Part shown: piece after piece, positions 1 through 11,066 of the stretch
Layout: each line of letters begins with the position of its first letter
Numbering within the stretch: position 1 is the first letter of the stretch
Source of the DNA: Clostridia bacterium
GTDB lineage: Bacteria > Acidobacteriota > Terriglobia > Terriglobales > Acidobacteriaceae
Assembly (NCBI GenBank): GCA_035561135.1
Contig: DATMYA010000008.1
Location: forward strand, 372,001 to 436,000
DNA: 64,000 nucleotides
Direction: 5' to 3'
The notes under the pieces: model-generated
The model's database searches: none
What the model saw: the letters and a program-made list of their open reading frames with translations, nothing else
What the model was told of the DNA's origin: nothing
Made by a program: the position numbers and the translations under genes

Positions 1-1681
1 CATGCATCAATAGAGTTTCAACCTCGAGTTCCAAAATCCTCTGTGTTTCCGGATCGTGGAGACCTGGCTGAAAGATCACGCGACCTTCCGCATCCAGCAA
101 GAAATTCATTGGCGCGGCCGAAATATTGTAAGTATTGCGCACCCAGTTTGGAGAAGGCGGCGGCTTCAGCGTTAAGAATGTGTAGCCGTTCTTTTCCATC
201 AGCGGCACCACTTCGGCGTCTTCGTCCCGCGTGGTATTGATGGCAAGCACCTCAAAGCCACGGGACTTGTACTTATTCAGCACCTTCTGGAGATAGGGAA
301 ATTCTTCACGGCAGAACCCGCAGCTCGGAAACCAGAAGTTAACCAGTACCACTCGGCCGCGGTAGTCTGACAATTTGACCGGTTTTCCATCCGCATAGGA
401 AATAAGCTCAAACGGTTTGAACGGATTGGAGTTGCTGCTGCGAGTGCGCCACAGTTCGTCCTCGATCTGCGACTCGGTCAAGCCCAACTTCTTTCCGTAA
501 TCGAGCAGAGCACTGTTCAAAAGAAGGTCGGGATTCTTTGCCACTATGCCGGCAAGCAGGTCATAGGCCTGTCGCATTCCCTTGCTTTGTGCGACTGCTT
601 GCGCCTTTAATAGATGGAGTTGAGTCGCAGGGCCCGGCGGAGGCTTGAGAGTTTCCAGCTTCGCGAAAGCCTTTTTGGCTTGGCTGCTGGCGAGCATTTG
701 TTTCGCTTCAACAATTCCCTTTTGGAATTCACTCAACTTCTTTATATCCGCATCCTTCGGGAACCACTGCTCAAGGTCGTGGACAAGTGCCAGCGCCTTT
801 TCTGGATCGCTCTTTGCGTAGATATCGAACAACTCAAGCATTGGGAACTGCAAGTTGGAGAGCTTAAGCGGTCCGTATTCCCTTCGACTGCGTTCGTAAA
901 TTTCAACCTGCGCAACAACATCGCCCTCGAAGCTGCTTGCAAGCATACTGGTCGCGGTAACCGCGATTTTGGTCTTCGGATTGCGCGTGATGATTTCTTG
1001 CAGGTACTTGCGGTATTCAGGCAGATCACGGCGCAGGGTGCGGGCATAGCTAATAAGAAGAGAGGTGTCCTCCGGTTTGAGTTCAATCGCTTTCTTGAAA
1101 TACTCCCTAGCCTTTGTCGTCTCGTCCCGGAATGCCCACAATACGCCTAGGTCGATATAGCCACTGACAAACTTCGGATCTTTTGCGATAGCTTCCCGGA
1201 AAAGCTCGTCCGCCCTGTTCTTATCAAATGGCTCGTACACTTTGCCAAGCGCCCACCGGAGTGTCGCCAGATCTGGGTGCTGCATGATCCATTGTTGATA
1301 GATAGGACCGAGTTCGGTCGCCCCGAAGCGCACTTCCGGGCCAGGCGTCGTGTCAACCGCCGTATTCTCCTTATTAGTTCCCTTTTTCGCGGCTTCCGCC
1401 AGCTTTAGCCGCTGCTCCCGCCGCGCGGCGCGGGTAGTCTTTATGAATTCGTTATGAGCATTTTCAAAGTTGAAATCGGCTTCGATAGCACGGCGAAACT
1501 CAGCTATCGCTTTCTCCGAATCTCCGGTTTTTCGAAACTCTTCTCCCTTTTCATAGCTCGTCTTGGCTTCTGAAACGGAGGTCCCTTCCGCTGCCTGCAC
1601 TATCAGGCGAACGCAGATCATGAGCAGGAAGACAAGCACGATCCTCATCAGCAGCCTGCGTCCATTCGATTGAGTCGTCAC
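1..1681 (-). CDS. TPR protein with C-terminal TlpA-like thioredoxin domain (partial)
   Basis: The frame is open from a GTG at 1681 to the window edge (560 codons); only the last few residues seem to be missing. GTG at 1681 has GGGGAA about 7 nt upstream; an ATG at 1648 is an alternative. The N-terminus has basic residues and then a hydrophobic run (VLVFLLMICVRLIV), which is a signal peptide or anchor. TPR-like helices follow (SYEKGEEFRKTGDSEKAIAE, later YIDLGVLWAF). The last 130 residues are a redoxin of the TlpA/AhpC-TSA type: GKPVKLSDYRGRVVLVNFW, then the redox motif C-G-F-C at C454-C457, and a later Ala-Pro turn matching the usual cis-Pro. The likely role is thiol-disulfide exchange outside the cytoplasm, with the TPRs as a protein-binding arm. 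Its substrate is unknown. It lies downstream of an Oar-like receptor on the same strand. Confidence 0.85.
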   Translation of the reverse strand, partial: MTTQSNGRRLLMRIVLVFLLMICVRLIVQAAEGTSVSEAKTSYEKGEEFRKTGDSEKAIAEFRRAIEADFNFENAHNEFIKTTRAARREQRLKLAEAAKKGTNKENTAVDTTPGPEVRFGATELGPIYQQWIMQHPDLATLRWALGKVYEPFDKNRADELFREAIAKDPKFVSGYIDLGVLWAFRDETTKAREYFKKAIELKPEDTSLLISYARTLRRDLPEYRKYLQEIITRNPKTKIAVTATSMLASSFEGDVVAQVEIYERSRREYGPLKLSNLQFPMLELFDIYAKSDPEKALALVHDLEQWFPKDADIKKLSEFQKGIVEAKQMLASSQAKKAFAKLETLKPPPGPATQLHLLKAQAVAQSKGMRQAYDLLAGIVAKNPDLLLNSALLDYGKKLGLTESQIEDELWRTRSSNSNPFKPFELISYADGKPVKLSDYRGRVVLVNFWFPSCGFCREEFPYLQKVLNKYKSRGFEVLAINTTRDEDAEVVPLMEKNGYTFLTLKPPPSPNWVRNTYNISAAPMNFLLDAEGRVIFQPGLHDPETQRILELEVETLLMH

Positions 1682-1720
1682 AATGATTTCCCCAGCGCAC
1701 ACGTATGGTTTCGGTTCTGA

Positions 1721-1776: not shown

Positions 1777-4700
1777 CTAGAACACGATTTTGGCGGCAAA
1801 CTGAATCGAGCGCGGGCCGCCGAGCTGGTAGAACGAGTCCAGCCCGCCAATGTTGCCCTGTCCACGCATCGAGGTGGTTTGGCCGAAGGTCGAGTTCTTC
1901 ATCGAGAAGCCCCATCCATAGAACACGTTGCCCAACTGAGTACTGGGCGGCGCGAAATTAGGATGGTTGAGAATGTTGAAGAATTCGCTCTTGAACTGCA
2001 ATTTCGCGCGCTTGGTTATAGTGAATTCACGACGGATGGCGAAGTCGAACTGGAATGCGCCCAGATTCCGCACGGAATTGCGGCCGACATTGCCATGGGT
2101 AAGTTTGGAAGGATCCCCTAGAGTCTTCTTTGTTGCGTCTGCCCAAACAATCGATGGGAAGTCGAACGCCGCGGCATTCAACACCTTTCCAGATGCTGCG
2201 CTCGGACTATCCACCCACATGGGAACTCCCTCAACCCTATCTGCTCGGAACATGTAGTATCCGCTCGGCAGATATGGACTGGGGTCAACCAGGAACGTTA
2301 CATCCATTGGTGTTCCCGACTCGTACTTCAGAATCCAGTCGGTTGCCCAGCCGCTCAACAATCCGTTGCCAACCTTGGCGAATGCACTAGAACCGAAGCT
2401 CGGTTTCGGAAATTCGTAGCTGACCACGGTGTTGAAGATGTGGCGGCGATCGAAGGACGACGACGCACGCGTGTCCATTGGATCCGAGCTTGAATATTCG
2501 TCATTCATGCCCCAATCCGACGAACCGGTGTCAATCGCGTGCGACCAGGTGTAGTTGCTCATTACCTGCAAGCCACGCGACATGCGGCGCTGGAACTGAA
2601 TCTGCATCGAGTTGTAGTCGGAGGTATCGCCCTTCTCATCATTGCTGCGAGTCACGCTCAGCCTTGACGATTGCGCTGTACCACCGAAGTCAGTGTTGAC
2701 GGAACCGACGTTATACATGTACCTGCGAAGCAGGTTCTTTCCGGAGTTGCCGACCCACGAAACGGTCAACGACTGGTCCTTGCCGAGCGACTGCTGTAAT
2801 GAAAGCGTCCACTGGTAAGACCGAGGCATGTGATAGTCAGGATCCACTGCGTTGAACATCTGCTGTTTATAAGGTGGCGTTAGGCTCAACGTAGGTGGCG
2901 CTTGAAGTTGTGCTTCCGTGAAGGGATACGGTACAGCCGTTCCGGTAGTGGCGCCCACAGGCTTCATCCGCGTGTAGGGGAAACCTTCAGTGGCCAACCC
3001 TGCCGTGCCGGCGCCGAGGTCATAATAGATACCGTAGCCACCACGCACGACCGTTTCCCAGCCCCGGGTTGTATTCAACTCGTAAGCAGCACCAATACGT
3101 GGGCCGAAACCGGTCTTGATCGAGGGATACAGTTCTGTACCAGCCGGAGCCAATGCAACGTTCGGCAGGTCATCAATGTTCGAGACTGTGTAAAGCGGTT
3201 TATCTTCGCGGCCATGCGGGGCGGGGTTGTAATCCCACCGCATACCGTAGTCCAGGGTCAAGCGCGGAGCCACGCGCCAGGTATCCTGCCCATAGATAGA
3301 GAAGTTTTCGTAAACAGCCACGACGCTCTCATTCGCAGTGATTCCTCCACTTGCAAGCGAGCTGCGTATATTGGCAAGGCTCCCCAGAGTGAGACTAAGC
3401 CCGTAATTGCGGGGTGCGGTCTTCGGGAACACATACCGGTAGTCGGCCCCGAACTTCATCAAGTGGTGGCCGCGTGCCACGCTTAGATTGTCTACAAAGT
3501 TGTATTGCCGCTGAACGGCTTCGCGGTTCGGACCTATTTGGAAGCTCCCGCCTAACACGCTGACCGTGACCTGGGCCAAGTCGCCGGCAAAGGACGGCAG
3601 CAGCGCATCCCGAGACACGGGGTTCGTGTTGTACAGGTTTGTGAGTTCACTGAGACCCGTAGCTTTGTTATGGCTATAGTTGGCACGGAACTCGTTCGTA
3701 ATGTTGTTGCTGATAACGGCGTTTGTGCCGAGGGTAAGGGTGTTCAGCAGCATTTCCGTGGCGCCTCTTTGGTTGCCACTCCAGCCTTCGCTGTTGGAAG
3801 GGGCGCGATTGTAGCGTCCAAAGATCGTCACTTTTGAATTCAGCGCATGATCTACGCGCACACTGACGTTATCCATGTTGCGCGCGGATGAGCTGGTGTA
3901 GGTAAATGGAGCGCTTCCGGAAGGGACTCCCTGGGCAGTGAGATTGTCCGGGCCATTCGGGAGCGGGAAAGAGTTGAGGATTGCCTTGACTTGCGGAGTG
4001 AGGCCAGCTTCGTCACGCAGCCACGTACTGGGAACGGTCATTTTGGTGCTGTTTTGCGGAAGCATAAGCCGTAGACCTTCGTAGGATGCAAAGAAGAAGG
4101 TCTTGTCCTTAATAATCGGACCACCGACGGTAAACCCAAAATTGTTTTGCCGAAGCGCTGGCTTCTTTTGGTTGTCCTTAACAAACCAGTTTCTCGCGTC
4201 CAGCACATCATTACGGAAATATTCCGAGACCGTGCCATGGAACTGGTTTTCGCCGGAGCGGGAGGTCATCTGGACCTGACCGCCTGGCTGGCGTCCATAC
4301 TCTGCCGAGAAGGTTGAGCTTTGAACCTTGAACTCCTGAAGGGCGTCGACCGACAGCATGCCGTTGGTGCCGCCAAAGGAGTTGTAGGCTGGTGTATTGC
4401 CGCCGAGCGTCGTGTCGATGCTTGCATACCCACCCGCACCGTTACTGCGCTGGGACCTGTTCAGCTGAATGCCGACGTTCGCCGACACGCCATCAATAAT
4501 GTATGCATTGGAATTGGTACGCTGGCCGTTAATGCTCATTTGGCCATCGCCGTCAGAGCCCATAACGGCGCCCGGAGTCATAAGCAACAGTGACTGGAAG
4601 CTGCGTCCGTTGAGCGGAGTGTTTTCTACAAACTTGCGATCGATAACTGTGCCAACGGCCGACGATGTTTCAATCATGTCTGCCGTCGCTTCGACCTTGA

Positions 4701-5061
4701 CCATCTCCGTCGTCGCGCCGACCTTCAATCGAATCCGCAACAGCTTCTGGTCTGCCGCATTCAGGACGATGTTGTTGATTTCTGCCGGTGCAAAACCATC
4801 ACGTTCTGCGATTACCTTGTACGTTCCGGGTGAGAGCAACGGAACAGCAAATGTTCCATTGCGGTCTGTGACCGCGCTGCGTCGCACCGCGGTGGCCGTG
4901 TTCATTACGGTTACTTTAACGTTTGTAACGATGGCTTCGGTTTGATCCAACACCGTGCCGCTCAAGGTTGCGCTATCGGATTGCGCGCTCAACCAGGGCG
5001 CGGAAGCCAACAGCACAATAATTAAGAACGCTATCCATTGCAGGTTACGTTGCCGACTCAT
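1777..5061 (-). CDS. Oar-like TonB-dependent receptor with carboxypeptidase-regulatory-like domain
   Basis: 1094 residues. The start is taken at the ATG at 5061 because GAGGAG sits 5-6 nt upstream and the next residues are a clean signal peptide ending SAQ; an earlier in-frame ATG at 5130 overlaps the upstream gene. After the signal comes a carboxypeptidase-regulatory-like beta-sandwich (SGTVLDQTEAIVTNVKVTV), then a plug-like region (TPLNGRSFQSLLLMTPG and PGGQVQMTSRSGENQFHG), then a long beta-barrel ending in Phe, as outer-membrane proteins do. This is the layout of Oar-like receptors, which are greatly expanded in Acidobacteriota. The ligand is unknown; polysaccharide, peptide or siderophore uptake, or surface adhesion, are all possible. 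It lies 55 bp downstream of the sigma/anti-sigma fusion gene on the same strand and may be co-transcribed with it. Confidence 0.9.
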   Translation of the reverse strand: MSRQRNLQWIAFLIIVLLASAPWLSAQSDSATLSGTVLDQTEAIVTNVKVTVMNTATAVRRSAVTDRNGTFAVPLLSPGTYKVIAERDGFAPAEINNIVLNAADQKLLRIRLKVGATTEMVKVEATADMIETSSAVGTVIDRKFVENTPLNGRSFQSLLLMTPGAVMGSDGDGQMSINGQRTNSNAYIIDGVSANVGIQLNRSQRSNGAGGYASIDTTLGGNTPAYNSFGGTNGMLSVDALQEFKVQSSTFSAEYGRQPGGQVQMTSRSGENQFHGTVSEYFRNDVLDARNWFVKDNQKKPALRQNNFGFTVGGPIIKDKTFFFASYEGLRLMLPQNSTKMTVPSTWLRDEAGLTPQVKAILNSFPLPNGPDNLTAQGVPSGSAPFTYTSSSARNMDNVSVRVDHALNSKVTIFGRYNRAPSNSEGWSGNQRGATEMLLNTLTLGTNAVISNNITNEFRANYSHNKATGLSELTNLYNTNPVSRDALLPSFAGDLAQVTVSVLGGSFQIGPNREAVQRQYNFVDNLSVARGHHLMKFGADYRYVFPKTAPRNYGLSLTLGSLANIRSSLASGGITANESVVAVYENFSIYGQDTWRVAPRLTLDYGMRWDYNPAPHGREDKPLYTVSNIDDLPNVALAPAGTELYPSIKTGFGPRIGAAYELNTTRGWETVVRGGYGIYYDLGAGTAGLATEGFPYTRMKPVGATTGTAVPYPFTEAQLQAPPTLSLTPPYKQQMFNAVDPDYHMPRSYQWTLSLQQSLGKDQSLTVSWVGNSGKNLLRRYMYNVGSVNTDFGGTAQSSRLSVTRSNDEKGDTSDYNSMQIQFQRRMSRGLQVMSNYTWSHAIDTGSSDWGMNDEYSSSDPMDTRASSSFDRRHIFNTVVSYEFPKPSFGSSAFAKVGNGLLSGWATDWILKYESGTPMDVTFLVDPSPYLPSGYYMFRADRVEGVPMWVDSPSAASGKVLNAAAFDFPSIVWADATKKTLGDPSKLTHGNVGRNSVRNLGAFQFDFAIRREFTITKRAKLQFKSEFFNILNHPNFAPPSTQLGNVFYGWGFSMKNSTFGQTTSMRGQGNIGGLDSFYQLGGPRSIQFAAKIVF

Positions 5062-5116: not shown

Positions 5117-8068
5117 TCATTGCTGCGCATGACGCAGAATGGCGGCAGCAGTGACCTCCGCCGCGTACATTGACGGCCAGAACCGCGGTGTATTCACCGT
5201 CGGTTCCAAGTCACTGCCGGTTGATAGTCGGAAGGAACGGCCGACCGCATCATCATTAGCTTTAGCCAAGCGGATGAGGCCATCGGCCAGCGTTTTCAGA
5301 TCACTTTCGGTGTCGACGACAACGGCGGAAGGCACCTCAGTGATTGTGTCGGGGGAGATCGGTTGCAGGCTGGCGCGGAGCTCTTTGTTCACCCGCAAGA
5401 ATTCATTTACGTGTTGGCTTATCAGGGCAAGCCACTCTGCACGCGCCTTCTCTGTCATGGCCGCAATCTCGGCCGCAGTGAAGCGCCCGGCAATTTCTCT
5501 CAGCGTTTGCGCGTGCATCCGCGCTTGCATGGAGTAGCCCGTTACTTGTTCGGAGAAACGCTGGACCTCTAAATCGAGCTCTGTGGTAATGCCTCTGCGG
5601 GCCAAGTAAGCACGCACTGCGGCATCCGCCGGGATGCGATCGCCGCTGACTTCGATTGAATCCACAAACAACCGTTTGGCCGTTTGATCTGGGACTGGGG
5701 CGCGTCGCTGCAACTCGGCGACCGTATTCACTCGCACCTTCAGCGAAGGAGATTTGGTGAACGGACCGAGCGCGCGCAGAATCGAGTCCCGGCGCTTCGG
5801 ACTCTCAACCACGCCACGCAGAGTCAGCACGCCATCGGTGCGCCTCAATTCCAGCTGTTCGCCGGCAAGCGCCTGTGCTGTGTCCAGGCGGCGCAGCACT
5901 TCGATTTCCTGCTCCGTCGTTACGGGAGCGAACAATGGCGACGGCAAGGCTGGCTGCAAACGGACGGCCGGGAAAAACAACCGCGGCTCCGGCTCGAAAA
6001 CTGACGGATCGGTGTCTGCGTCTGGCTGCCGCGTGTATCCGGTTTCGACCAGGCGGTATTCCCTACTGTCGTTCTCTTGTTCAATTACAAAACTTTGCTC
6101 GACCGCATGGAGACCGCTGCGGCGCAGAGTAAGGCTGGCGTTCACCAACCGCGGACCATCTTGCACTGGCCTGGCATTTTGATAGCGAAGGACGACTTCG
6201 CGGTCATTTTCTTCAGCTTTCAGCTTGCCCCCGCCATCGGCCAGCTTACGGAAGACCTCTGCGGCAGGCACAAGGTCCCACATCGGCACGGAAAGAACTC
6301 CGCTCTTCGACTTCCCGTCCTGCAGGGTTGCGCTGGCTGAGGCGTATGTAATCTTTGTGCCGTCCGGCTTCGTCCACTCACCGGCAACCAGTTTCTGGTT
6401 TTCATCAAAGACGCGTCGCGAACCCGTCGCCTGTCCCAGTTTTTGCCAGAATTCGATTCGCCGCCGCCGAATTACCTTCTCCGTGCCGGGTTTCCGTTCT
6501 TCGACCGCGATGCTGCGGTGAACAACATCCGCGCTCCCAGCAGGAACAGTTCGCTCCGCGGCCTCCGCACGCGCCAGTATTGCCGCCGGCGGTTCTTTTC
6601 TCGATGGCGTCAAAATCAACAGCAGCGCCGCAAGCACCGCGAGCACAGCCATGACAGGCACTGGACGCAGCCAGGGCGAAAGTCCCCGAAGCGCTCGCAA
6701 CGGCAGAACAAGCAGCCCGCAGCTCCGTGTCAACCAGTTACTGCGAGGGACCGGTGATCCCAGTACTTCGCCTTCGACGTGAACTGCATCTGCCTGCCGG
6801 GCTGTCGTGTCGTCTTCAACGACCTCAACCGCACTTGCCTGACGGGCAATCGAAGGATCGCTGTAGCTGACGTGGACCGAAGGCCAGTGGCCACTCAGAT
6901 TCAACTTCGCCGTCAATATCCGGTTATCACTGAGGCAGACGGCGGCAGACTGCTCTACCGCGCCGTCAATTGCGGCATCCTCGACGTTCAGTAGCATGAG
7001 GCGAACGTTGCGCTCACTGAAGAGCTCGATAAAGCTGACGGGCTCAGCGATCGGCACGCTGACGGTCTGCTCCATCAGCCCCGAACTGATCTTCTGCGAT
7101 CCCACCGAGTACCCGTTGACCGAAAGGAGGAGCTCCTCGGGACGGTGCTCATAAACTTCCCGCGCACAGCGTCCAAAGTGTCCGCCGCCGTCTGCGGCTC
7201 CCGCGCCACCATCGAACCCGTCGTGCGAATCAGGGCCGAGCATATCGGACGGATGACGCTGCGCCAAAAGCGGAAGGCCAAGGATGCGATTCACTTCATC
7301 CAGGCACTTCGCACAACTCACAATGTGGGCAATCTGGCAGCATTCAATTGTCTGCGTGCTTGCCTGCGCGTATGCGCGCTCCAGTTCGCTACGGCCAATG
7401 CACTCGCCCTGGCACGATGCAAAGACCCTCTGACGAAGTTCGGCAAGATATTCCTGCCGTGGACGGTGGGTCTTGGTCTGCGCCTCCTGAAGACCGGTGC
7501 CCTCGATGTTTCGGTGGGTTATGCGTAGCCGCGCTTCACTTCGCGCCACGAGCAGCCTGTTTGCAACCGCCTGGCGCGTGACGCGCATTACACGCGCAAT
7601 CTCAGCCGGATAATAGCCGTGGAAAAATCGCAGGATGAGGACGCTACCCGCCGTTGAATCCTGCTTCCGCTCGCAAGCGTAACCACAGACGAGCCACAGT
7701 TCCTGTTTCGCCTCTATGCGCGCAACGGGATCGAGCACGCAAAGTCCGAGTTCCGCAGAGTCGTACTCCAGGATTGACGCATTCACGGTGGTGCGGCATG
7801 CAGCGCGGCGCACCATCGATACGTAGACATTTCGCAGGATGATTCGCAAATATCCGTCGATATTTGCGATTTTGCTCAGGTCCGGCCGGGTGAGGGTGAA
7901 TTGAATAAAGGCGTCGTGGAGGACGTCCTCCGCCTGATGCTCATTCTCTGTGAGCCGCAGCGCCCAGCTGCGTAGCCGGCTGTAGCGGTCCAGAAAAATA
8001 TCGGCATAAGTCGGCTCCGGGCCGACCACACGACTATGCCGGGGTGCGCGTTTTAGAGACTTCAGCAT
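5117..8068 (-). CDS. ECF sigma factor fused to anti-sigma-type zinc motif, membrane span and extracytoplasmic domain
   Basis: 983 residues in one frame. Residues 20-90 are sigma-70 region 2 (WALRLTENEHQAEDVLHDAF, core helices of ECF factors). Residues 140-185 are region 4 with a helix-turn-helix (EIARVMRVTRQAVANRL). H248-x3-C252-x2-C255 then matches the Hx3Cx2C core of ZAS-type anti-sigma factors. Residues 300-410 look like a beta-rich cytoplasmic domain. One transmembrane helix lies at about 466-487 (PVMAVLAVLAALLLILT). The remaining 500 residues would face the periplasm; near residues 770-810 is a BON-like stretch (LRRTDGVLTLRGVVESPKRR). The usual separate sigma and anti-sigma partners thus appear as one chain, which should hold the sigma domain at the membrane until it is released. 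Domain calls are by motif; release by proteolysis is inference. The receptor downstream is a possible target or partner. Confidence 0.85.
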   Translation of the reverse strand: MLKSLKRAPRHSRVVGPEPTYADIFLDRYSRLRSWALRLTENEHQAEDVLHDAFIQFTLTRPDLSKIANIDGYLRIILRNVYVSMVRRAACRTTVNASILEYDSAELGLCVLDPVARIEAKQELWLVCGYACERKQDSTAGSVLILRFFHGYYPAEIARVMRVTRQAVANRLLVARSEARLRITHRNIEGTGLQEAQTKTHRPRQEYLAELRQRVFASCQGECIGRSELERAYAQASTQTIECCQIAHIVSCAKCLDEVNRILGLPLLAQRHPSDMLGPDSHDGFDGGAGAADGGGHFGRCAREVYEHRPEELLLSVNGYSVGSQKISSGLMEQTVSVPIAEPVSFIELFSERNVRLMLLNVEDAAIDGAVEQSAAVCLSDNRILTAKLNLSGHWPSVHVSYSDPSIARQASAVEVVEDDTTARQADAVHVEGEVLGSPVPRSNWLTRSCGLLVLPLRALRGLSPWLRPVPVMAVLAVLAALLLILTPSRKEPPAAILARAEAAERTVPAGSADVVHRSIAVEERKPGTEKVIRRRRIEFWQKLGQATGSRRVFDENQKLVAGEWTKPDGTKITYASASATLQDGKSKSGVLSVPMWDLVPAAEVFRKLADGGGKLKAEENDREVVLRYQNARPVQDGPRLVNASLTLRRSGLHAVEQSFVIEQENDSREYRLVETGYTRQPDADTDPSVFEPEPRLFFPAVRLQPALPSPLFAPVTTEQEIEVLRRLDTAQALAGEQLELRRTDGVLTLRGVVESPKRRDSILRALGPFTKSPSLKVRVNTVAELQRRAPVPDQTAKRLFVDSIEVSGDRIPADAAVRAYLARRGITTELDLEVQRFSEQVTGYSMQARMHAQTLREIAGRFTAAEIAAMTEKARAEWLALISQHVNEFLRVNKELRASLQPISPDTITEVPSAVVVDTESDLKTLADGLIRLAKANDDAVGRSFRLSTGSDLEPTVNTPRFWPSMYAAEVTAAAILRHAQQ

Positions 8069-8077
8069 CTGTTGTTA

Positions 8078-8093
8078 CATATCTGTCGCTCCT
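8078..8093 (-). promoter_or_regulatory. start-stop mini-ORF (ATG-TAA) in leader of sigma fusion gene
   Basis: On the minus strand AGGAG (8093-8089) is followed after 8 nt by ATG (8080-8078) and at once by TAA (8077-8075). The sigma gene's own ATG (8068) lies 20 nt from that Shine-Dalgarno sequence, further than is usual. The best-placed start is therefore followed directly by a stop, which could lower or regulate translation of the fusion protein. Confidence 0.4.
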
Positions 8094-8255
8094 GGGGGAG
8101 GCGATATTTCGCGCTTGTGAAACTTTTTTATTATGTTAGGCAAAATAAGCGTGTTTGGTGGTGACGTATGTCACTGCTGTCGGTACGGACTACCCGGAAT
8201 TTGTTAATGGTCGCCAGGTCTCGAACGCAGATCATCGAACCCGGAGATGAACTGA

Positions 8256-11066
8256 ATGACAGTCGAAGAAACTCAACGAAACGTGTCAGATGTGTACCAG
8301 CGGCCATTCGAGAAGGTCGTTGCGGAGCTTCGAAGCGACGCCGAACGCGGTTTGAGTGAAGGCGAGACACAAGCAAGGCGAGCACGCTACGGCAGCAACG
8401 AGTTGACGGCGGAAAAACCGGTACCTGCCTGGAGGAAGTTTCTCGCCCAGTTTCAGGATGTGCTCGTCATCCTGCTCCTGATTGCGACTGCCATCTCTGG
8501 CGCGCTCTGGCTGTATGAACGCGAATCTGCCCTGCCTTACGAAGCGATCACGATTTTTGCTGTCGTTCTGCTCAACGCGGTAATGGGTTATATCCAGGAA
8601 TCGCGAGCGGAGTCTGCAGTGGCGGCCCTGCGCCAGATGGCAGCGGCACACGCGAATGTGGTGCGCGACGGCGAGCAGCGCGAGATTCCGGCCACAGAGG
8701 TGGTACCCGGCGACATCATTCTCGTCGCAGAAGGCGACACGATTCCCGCAGATGCCCGGTTAATCCAATCCACAGCATTACAAACAGCCGAAGCAGCTTT
8801 GACTGGCGAGAGCTTACCGGCCTCGAAGGACGTGGATCCGATTCCCGAGCAAGCGGGCATTGGCGACCGCGACAACATGGTCTTCAGTGGCACCACCGCC
8901 ACCTACGGACACGGGCGTGCCGTGGTCGTCGCAACCGGCATGAACACCGAGATGGGTCATATCGCCGGCATGCTGAAAGAAGTTCCGGACGAGACGACGC
9001 CGCTGCAGAAGGAACTGGACCGGGTCGGAAAGTTGTTGGGAGTGATCGTGGTGATCATTGCAGCCGTGATGATCGCGACCATCATTCTCGTTGAGCACGT
9101 GACAGGGTTCTCAGCAATCTTCGAGGTACTCATTCTCGGGGTAGCGCTCGCCGTCGCGGCTGTGCCGGAGGGACTGCCGGCGGTTGTGACAGTCGTACTC
9201 TCGATCGGAGTTCAGCGCATGGCGCGCAGGAACGCGATCGTTCGCCATCTCGCGGCGGTGGAAACGCTCGGATCGGCGAATGTCATCGCATCCGATAAGA
9301 CAGGCACGCTGACGAAGAATGAAATGACGGTGCGAGTGGTCGTTACGGCCTCCGGTCGTGTGGACATCGAGGGCACCGGCTATGCTCCGGAAGGCGAGGT
9401 AACGCGGAATGGAGGAGGAGCCGTCGACGGTGATCTCCGCCTCGAGTTGGACCGGGTGCTTGCGGCTGCCGACCGCGCCAATAACGCAGTTCTACAGGAG
9501 CACGACGGCCGGTGGACGGTACAAGGCGATCCGACCGAGGGTGCTCTCGTTGTCGCCGCTCGCAAAGCCGGGTTGGAAGCCGAGGCTCTGGCCGCGCGCT
9601 TTGAACGCATCGGCGAGATTCCATTTTCCTCAGAGCGCAAGCTGATGAGCACGATTCACACAGACGCGGAGAGGAAAGACCGTGTGCTCGTTTTCACAAA
9701 AGGCGCCCCCGACATTCTCCTCTCGCGATGCTCACAGGAACTCGCCGGAGAACATCTCAGGCCCTTGAACGATGAGCGTCGCAAGGAAATTCTGAGCATC
9801 AATGAAGAACTAGCCGGGCGCGCGTTGCGGACGCTGGGAGTTGCGTTTCGGCCTATGCCCGCCGATACGGAAGCCGAGCAACTCGACAGCAGGGTTGAGC
9901 GCGACCTGGTCTTTGCCGGATTGATTGGGATGATTGACCCGCCGCGCGAAGAGGCGAAAGACGCTGTCGCTCGCGCTAAAGGCGCTGGAATACGTCCAAT
10001 GATGATCACGGGAGATCATCCGAAGACGGCGCAGGTGATCGCTCGCGAATTAGGCATCGTGCGCGATGACCGGGCCGTCACAGGTGCGGCACTCGAAACC
10101 ATGTCCGATGATTCGCTTGCGCGGACCGTCAAGCACACAGCCGTCTATGCGCGAGTAAACCCCGAGCACAAACTGCGAATCGTGAAGGCGTTGCGGGCAG
10201 GCGCAGCGGTCGTAGCCATGACCGGAGATGGGGTCAATGATGCGCCCGCTCTAAAGACGGCGGACATCGGGGTCGCGATGGGGATTACAGGCACTGACGT
10301 TTCCAAGGAAGCGGCCGACATGATTCTGGCAGATGACAATTTCGCGACTATCGTTGCAGCTGTCGAAGCAGGCCGTTCAATCTTTTTAAACATCAGAAAG
10401 TTTTTGCGTTACTTGCTCTCGTCGAATATCGGCGAAGTAATGACCATGTTCTTCGGCGTCATTCTGGCGAAGTTTATCGGGTTGCGCGCGGATGAGAACG
10501 CTGTCGTTCTCCCGTTGCTGGCTACGCAGCTTTTGTGGATCAATCTCGTTACCGACGGTGCGCCCGCGCTGGCGTTGGGCGTTGACCCGGCCGATCCAGA
10601 AGTGATGAACAGGCCTCCCCGCCCAGTCGAAGAACGCGTGATCACGAAACCCATGTGGCGGGGCATCTTTTTCGTCGGCGCAGTAATGGCCGCCGGGACG
10701 TTGCTCATCCTGGATGCGTCTTTGCCGGGAGGGCTGATAGAGGGCTCCGGCACTATGAACTATGCGCAAACAATGGCTTTCACGACACTGATGATTTTCC
10801 AGTTATTCAACGTCTTCAATGCTCGTTCCGACAAAGAGAGCGCATTCCGGGGAATCTTCAGAAACCATTGGGTATGGCTGGCAATTGCATTGTCGCTGAC
10901 GCTGCAAGTGGCGGTAGTTTACGTGCCGTTTCTGCAGCGCGCCTTTTCGACATCGAGCCTGAACCTCGGCGATTGGGTGCGCTGCGCAATGGTCGCAAGC
11001 TCGGTATTGTGGCTGCGCGAGATAAGCAAAGCGGTTACGCGAGCGATGAACAAGAGAGCAGCGTAA
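8256..11066 (+). CDS. P2-type cation-transporting ATPase (calcium-pump-like)
   Basis: 936 residues, the usual length for a P2 ATPase. Visible motifs, in order: an N-terminal cation-ATPase domain (GLSEGETQARRARYGSNEL), TGES of the actuator domain, PEGL in TM4 (AVAAVPEGLPAVV), the phosphorylated Asp in DKTGTLT (D347), TGDHPKTA, GDGVNDAPAL, and in TM6 NLVTDGAPALALG. PEGL together with the NxxTD motif of TM6 fits SERCA/PMR1-like pumps that export Ca2+ or Mn2+, but the ion cannot be fixed from sequence alone. The ATG at 8256 has GGAG about 11 nt upstream. It is divergent from the sigma-fusion gene across a 187-bp gap, and a VIT-like transporter starts 15 bp after its stop, so the two are probably co-transcribed. 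Confidence 0.93.
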   Translation: MTVEETQRNVSDVYQRPFEKVVAELRSDAERGLSEGETQARRARYGSNELTAEKPVPAWRKFLAQFQDVLVILLLIATAISGALWLYERESALPYEAITIFAVVLLNAVMGYIQESRAESAVAALRQMAAAHANVVRDGEQREIPATEVVPGDIILVAEGDTIPADARLIQSTALQTAEAALTGESLPASKDVDPIPEQAGIGDRDNMVFSGTTATYGHGRAVVVATGMNTEMGHIAGMLKEVPDETTPLQKELDRVGKLLGVIVVIIAAVMIATIILVEHVTGFSAIFEVLILGVALAVAAVPEGLPAVVTVVLSIGVQRMARRNAIVRHLAAVETLGSANVIASDKTGTLTKNEMTVRVVVTASGRVDIEGTGYAPEGEVTRNGGGAVDGDLRLELDRVLAAADRANNAVLQEHDGRWTVQGDPTEGALVVAARKAGLEAEALAARFERIGEIPFSSERKLMSTIHTDAERKDRVLVFTKGAPDILLSRCSQELAGEHLRPLNDERRKEILSINEELAGRALRTLGVAFRPMPADTEAEQLDSRVERDLVFAGLIGMIDPPREEAKDAVARAKGAGIRPMMITGDHPKTAQVIARELGIVRDDRAVTGAALETMSDDSLARTVKHTAVYARVNPEHKLRIVKALRAGAAVVAMTGDGVNDAPALKTADIGVAMGITGTDVSKEAADMILADDNFATIVAAVEAGRSIFLNIRKFLRYLLSSNIGEVMTMFFGVILAKFIGLRADENAVVLPLLATQLLWINLVTDGAPALALGVDPADPEVMNRPPRPVEERVITKPMWRGIFFVGAVMAAGTLLILDASLPGGLIEGSGTMNYAQTMAFTTLMIFQLFNVFNARSDKESAFRGIFRNHWVWLAIALSLTLQVAVVYVPFLQRAFSTSSLNLGDWVRCAMVASSVLWLREISKAVTRAMNKRAA

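Follow-up and report, generated by a model that had tools for sequence, protein, structure and literature searches.

The window, a 64,000-nucleotide stretch of DNA from a member of the Acidobacteriaceae, carries on its minus strand a gene (5117..8068) that joins a sigma factor, a ZAS-like anti-sigma domain and a membrane sensor in a single chain of 983 aa. The initial annotation had given a 983-residue frame and stated no strand; the frame is real, and runs on the minus strand from 8068 down to 5117 without an internal stop. From the N to the C terminus the chain comprises ECF sigma regions 2 and 4, a ZAS motif and a cytoplasmic β domain, followed by a single membrane helix and some 490 residues in the periplasm. 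It is probably a self-inhibited, membrane-tethered ECF sigma factor that would be freed by proteolysis and would then drive its own receptor operon.

The fused architecture is present both in the window's own family and in a second class. We extracted 41 complete fused relatives, 916-1044 aa long, from two classes of Acidobacteriota, the Terriglobia and the Blastocatellia; named carriers are Granulicella sp. L60, Paracidobacterium acidisoli and a Pyrinomonadaceae MAG. All 41 retain region 2, region 4, the ZAS domain, the β domain and the membrane helix in one frame. The sign of artefact raised earlier, relatives divided into two genes by a frameshift, does not apply, as the 41 relatives keep a single frame. 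An internal start that would yield a separate anti-sigma protein was also considered, and was rejected because residues 184-213 contain no conserved Met. The conservation counts given below refer to 40 aligned fused proteins.

Domain architecture of the fused protein

Features given here by residue number all lie on the minus strand. Sigma-70 region 2 occupies residues 29-89 (7802..7984), where Sigma70_r2 (PF04542) passes the Pfam cut-off with an E-value of 4e-7. Region 4 is divergent (residues 143-178, 7535..7642): Sigma70_r4_2 (PF08281) matches residues 143-176 with an E-value of 1e-3, which is under the Pfam cut-off, and R147, E156, R176 and E178 are conserved. The NCBIfam sigma model TIGR02985 spans residues 21-180 (E 2e-12, under its own cut-off), a profile built from 21 relatives matches solved ECF sigma factors by sequence, and the structural model of the protein matches the folds of SigH, SigE and SigL. 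The N-terminal part therefore has the composition of an ECF sigma factor, with Sigma70_r2 and Sigma70_r4 domains and neither region 1 nor region 3, and the regions 2 and 4 that had been claimed from the sequence are borne out.

The sigma domain is followed by a ZAS-like anti-sigma domain at residues 205-268 (7265..7456), with C223, H248, C252 and C255 as its ligands. The Hx3Cx2C motif itself runs from H248 to C255 (7304..7327); H248 and C255 are present in 40/40 aligned fused proteins and C252 in 39/40. Position 223, 25 residues ahead of H248, is Cys in 37/40 and His in 3/40, and we take it to be the fourth ZAS ligand, which is Cys in RsrA and His in ChrR. The protein thus combines the Hx3Cx2C motif with a Cys or His about 25 residues before the His, as in ZAS domains. 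When the protein was searched with Pfam, neither zf-HC2 nor BON matched, and both labels therefore needed other tests. For the ZAS segment, comparison with a profile built on 28 zf-HC2 proteins of related genomes gave a probability of 76.6 and an E-value of 2e-5 (for one comparison), and aligned C223, H248, C252 and C255 in register. The same comparison with 30 column-shuffled controls gave probabilities of at most 2.1, and other parts of the protein gave less than 1. The earlier reading of H248, C252 and C255 as a ZAS motif thus stands on conservation and on this in-register match, with the Pfam zf-HC2 model itself silent.

Between the ZAS domain and the membrane lies the β-rich cytoplasmic part that had been noticed before, at residues 296-408 (6845..7183). 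It has no assigned family, and no relative was found among Pfam and PDB sequences. It is nevertheless among the better-conserved parts of the chain, with H308, P310, L313, R383 and Y402 invariant (40/40). In the Acidobacteriota sampled, its profile finds almost only fused proteins and two loci of a separate type described below (L088 and L129). It might conceivably act in gating or spacing. A stray fragment of the domain was seen in a 129-aa frame at another locus (L090:6678-7067), possibly a pseudogene remnant of a fused gene. Hydropathy gives one strong hydrophobic segment in the chain, at residues 469-487 (6608..6664), and the segment is found at the equivalent place in 40/40 aligned proteins, in agreement with the single membrane helix first proposed.

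The initial annotation had also claimed a large outer part of about 500 residues including a BON-like stretch; we find about 490 periplasmic residues. AlphaFold2 models predict that this part opens with a LolA/MucB/RseB-like fold and continues with a BON-like stretch and a helical tail. The first domain, which the annotation had not recognised, comprises residues 491-702 (5963..6598). Foldseek matched it to LolA with an E-value of 9e-7, and VIA-align gave Z-scores of 13.5 against LolA (4mxt; 4.2 Å over 171 residues), 11.5 against MucB (6in9; 3.7 Å, 156 residues) and 11.0 against RseB (2v42; 3.8 Å, 156 residues). The predicted structure has the half-open β-barrel with helices that defines the LolA/LolB/RseB superfamily. 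The likeness is one of fold only, since no sequence-level link between the periplasmic part and LolA was found. The BON-like domain (residues 718-782, 5723..5917) has weak support: its modelled order of elements is α-β-β-α-β and a few relatives give weak matches to the BON superfamily in Pfam, but Pfam BON does not match the window protein. A Pfam scan of the periplasmic part likewise gave no match to FecR, the domain of FecR-type anti-sigma factors. The C-terminal helical region, residues 816-983 (5120..5623), was modelled with partly low confidence. The two models as a whole are of moderate confidence (pLDDT 60 and 64; pTM 0.36 and 0.41), and show no resolved packing between domains, the ZAS domain against sigma included.

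The receptor operon and candidate promoters

The gene after the fused gene in the window (1777..5061, minus strand, likely start ATG 5061) encodes an Oar-like TonB-dependent outer-membrane receptor (PF25183, E 1e-152) with a CarboxypepD_reg domain (PF13620), in which no STN domain was found. The link to this gene is a further feature absent from the initial annotation, and the synteny check in other Acidobacteriota that was proposed there gave a uniform result: a homologue of the receptor is the next gene on the same strand at 41/41 fused loci, although at four of the 41 the evidence is partial, owing to a contig end or a long start call. The genome of P. acidisoli (G034) contains six fused paralogues, and each one examined has a receptor gene, or its start, downstream. 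Among the receptors scanned, 19/19 have PF25183 and a carboxypeptidase-regulatory domain and 0/19 have an STN domain. The linked receptors thus carry CarboxypepD_reg in place of the STN domain of IutY-type systems, and, because they lack this domain of classical cell-surface signalling, it is synteny that ties receptor to sensor. Receptor distances track those of the sensor more closely than those of the sigma factor, but weakly (partial r 0.33, p 0.001, against 0.10, p 0.08). Co-evolution of receptor and sensor is moderate overall, and none was seen within fused-split pairs.

The next gene in the window encodes a TPR protein whose C-terminal end looks thioredoxin-like by eye (2..1702, minus strand); it runs past the window edge. 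At a related locus (L033) the product of the gene that follows the receptor also contains an AhpC/TSA domain, and at several loci a secreted redoxin or peptidase is encoded after the receptor.

Just upstream of the start of six related fused genes we found the motif GTGGGTT-N15-CGTCTWA. In genome-wide searches it occurs once per genome in the six genomes, always before the fused gene; the reversed pattern, used as a control, has zero matches in them. Because of this single occurrence at the fused gene, there is strong evidence that the fused genes of these relatives are autoregulated through a candidate ECF-type promoter, and the predicted regulon seems to be very narrow, consisting of the own receptor operon only. 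In the window, a candidate ECF-type autoregulatory promoter, AATATC-N13-GCGACAGATA (8080..8108, minus strand), occurs in the same register before the fused genes of two relatives (L033 and L116); it is weaker than the six-genome motif because it was derived from the three sequences that it matches. A minimal ATG-TAA start-stop pair lies at 8078-8083 (minus strand), just ahead of the fused start codon and spaced from AGGAG as a start codon is from its Shine-Dalgarno sequence; because of its overlap with the promoter element it may be due to chance. An inverted repeat, GTGAC-GTAT-GTCAC, is found at 8161-8174 between the fused gene and its divergent neighbour, and is a possible operator of low significance. 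The neighbour, at 8256, encodes a protein of 936 aa that appears by eye to be P-type ATPase-like.

Split relatives and exchange of the sensor

In Acidobacteriaceae, homologous sensors are also carried by separate ZAS anti-sigma factors whose genes adjoin separate sigma genes. Two such split pairs (L091 and L092) are present in the window's own genome. Their sensors are homologous to that of the window (31-33% identity), and like it they have a single membrane helix and an HxxxCxxC motif; unlike it, they have a separate sigma gene, of another sigma clade, and no cytoplasmic β domain. As at the fused loci, a receptor gene lies downstream of 14/18 split pairs. Four split pairs with the same sensor (L191-L194) are not followed by a TonB receptor.

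Fused and split proteins are interleaved in the sensor tree, where well-supported branches force at least three changes between the two forms, and a constraint keeping the fused sensors together was rejected (AU p 1e-68). The sensor of the window groups with the sensors of both split pairs of its own genome. In the sigma tree, by contrast, fused and split sigma factors separate cleanly. From this conflict between the trees we infer transfer of the sensor between two sigma/anti-sigma chassis that are unrelated, one fused and one split.

The closest kin of the fused sigma factor and of the ZAS-β part are encoded by separate neighbouring genes at L088 and L129. At these loci a separate gene for ZAS, β domain and membrane helix adjoins a separate sigma gene, whose product is sister to the fused sigma factors. 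Therefore the ZAS-β part also occurs on its own, as the partner of a sigma factor encoded separately. The gene order is inverted at L088:6239-8232 and at L129, in low-GC Acidobacteriota genomes (G473 and G526), where the ZAS-β-membrane helix gene precedes the sigma gene. At L088 it is followed by a protein that by eye is TPR-CHAT-like, with no TonB receptor.

Proposed signalling mechanism and relation to known systems

The domains, the zinc ligands, the membrane helix, conservation across two classes, the split pairs in the same genome and the promoter of the relatives all agree with the one-protein transmembrane sigma/anti-sigma switch first suggested from the sequence. In the mechanism we propose, the sigma factor (residues 1-190) would be held at the inner membrane, with the ZAS domain (about 205-268) presumably binding it in cis and blocking its binding to RNA polymerase. 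The chain is predicted to cross the membrane once and to end in the periplasmic sensor of LolA/RseB-like fold, BON-like domain and helices. The cue would be periplasmic, and probably linked either to the receptor encoded downstream or to a lipid or peptide bound within the LolA-like cavity. It would make the sensor accessible to cleavage, first by a site-1 protease and afterwards by RseP. Once released, the N-terminal fragment would act chiefly on its own operon, which encodes a secreted redoxin or peptidase besides the switch and the receptor.

A different source for the signal has a smaller, though appreciable, chance of being correct. The protein may be an envelope-stress sensor of the sigma-E type, whose LolA/RseB-like domain would bind off-pathway lipid or lipoprotein and for which the receptor would be a regulated target only. 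MucB and RseB are among the solved structures nearest in fold; they bind lipid A and protect the anti-sigma factors MucA and RseA from cleavage (PMC7400510), and the absence of STN domains from the receptors points the same way. However, the regulon appears to be confined to the receptor operon itself, which does not resemble a broad stress response. Moreover, several paralogues may coexist in a genome, each accompanied by a receptor (six in P. acidisoli), which fits substrate-specific systems better.

It is rather unlikely that the switch works without any cleavage, the sensor shifting the contact of the ZAS or β domain across the membrane so that the sigma factor, still tethered, brings RNA polymerase to the operon. 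Such a mechanism would give a role to the fully conserved extra cytoplasmic domain between ZAS and membrane, which is absent from the split anti-sigma factors with the same sensor and could gate or space the sigma factor, and a very narrow regulon is within reach of a tethered protein. On the other hand, the membrane sigma/anti-sigma hybrids for which there is evidence work by proteolysis. Prc and RseP cut the hybrid IutY and free its sigma domain (PMC5411451), and proteolytic release has been proposed for ECF48, ECF52 and ECF53, in which a zinc-finger domain is combined with membrane helices (PMC8999054; PMC5826349). The window's genome encodes homologues of RseP (site-2 protease) and of Prc/CtpA. 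By analogy with IutY and ECF48/52/53 we therefore favour cleavage over tethered action.

That the gene is a degenerate or artefactual joining of an ordinary sigma/anti-sigma pair is highly implausible and was already refuted by the frame shared by 41 relatives of two classes, whose sigma factors cluster together and apart from split ones; a true case, a split pair joined by a frameshift into an 873-aa frame (L196:5423-8044) that annotation would call a fusion, looks different, its region 4 having been destroyed.

The fusion of sigma and anti-sigma factor is already known in principle, and the initial annotation overstated its novelty (IutY, PMC5411451; the actinobacterial ECF48/52/53, PMC8999054, PMC5826349). 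IutY of Pseudomonas putida (ECF243; PMC5411451) likewise unites in a single polypeptide an ECF sigma factor on the inner side, one membrane helix and a regulatory part on the outer side, and its gene also lies beside that of a TonB-dependent receptor, which IutY controls. However, IutY has an anti-sigma domain of the FecR type (CSS) as its outer part, and IutA, its receptor, is described as typical of CSS, whereas the present protein has a ZAS domain, an extra cytoplasmic β domain, a LolA/RseB-like and BON-like outer part and STN-less receptors. ECF52 (SCO4117 of Streptomyces; PMC5826349), ECF48 and ECF53 (PMC8999054) share with it the layout of sigma factor, ZAS-like zinc finger, transmembrane helix and outer sensing domain in one chain. 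Published descriptions confine ECF52 to Actinobacteria and give it a proline-rich region and an outer carbohydrate-binding domain; the acidobacterial host, the β domain, the LolA-like fold and the receptor operon set the present family apart from these groups as described. The sigma-E/RseA/RseB system of E. coli and the AlgU/MucA/MucB system of Pseudomonas also combine an ECF sigma factor with an anti-sigma factor in the membrane and a periplasmic sensor of LolA-like fold, but as three separate proteins rather than one chain, and RseA and MucA are without the ZAS motif.

No description of this fused family was found in the open-access literature searched. As far as that literature shows, the acidobacterial family itself, its ZAS-β-membrane helix-LolA/BON layout, the invariable linkage to STN-less receptors and the movement of sensors from one form to the other, fused and split, are new. 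We suggest only tentatively that they make up a new class of cell-surface signalling, in which functions like those of sigma-E, RseA and RseB would be united in one chain, coupled to STN-less Oar-type receptors, with sensors exchanged between a fused and a split chassis and each switch driving no more than its own receptor operon.

The family adds many natural fused examples from a poorly studied soil phylum. As sigma factor and inhibitor are always present 1:1 and in cis, the fused proteins allow a direct test of whether a membrane sigma factor needs to be cut free; one genome offers split and fused versions with the same sensor, and the predicted promoters are usable in a reporter. The chain also offers synthetic biology an orthogonal one-gene switch. 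The linkage of a LolA/RseB-like fold to receptor operons suggests a way in which cell-surface sensing may operate in bacteria that lack STN-type receptors.
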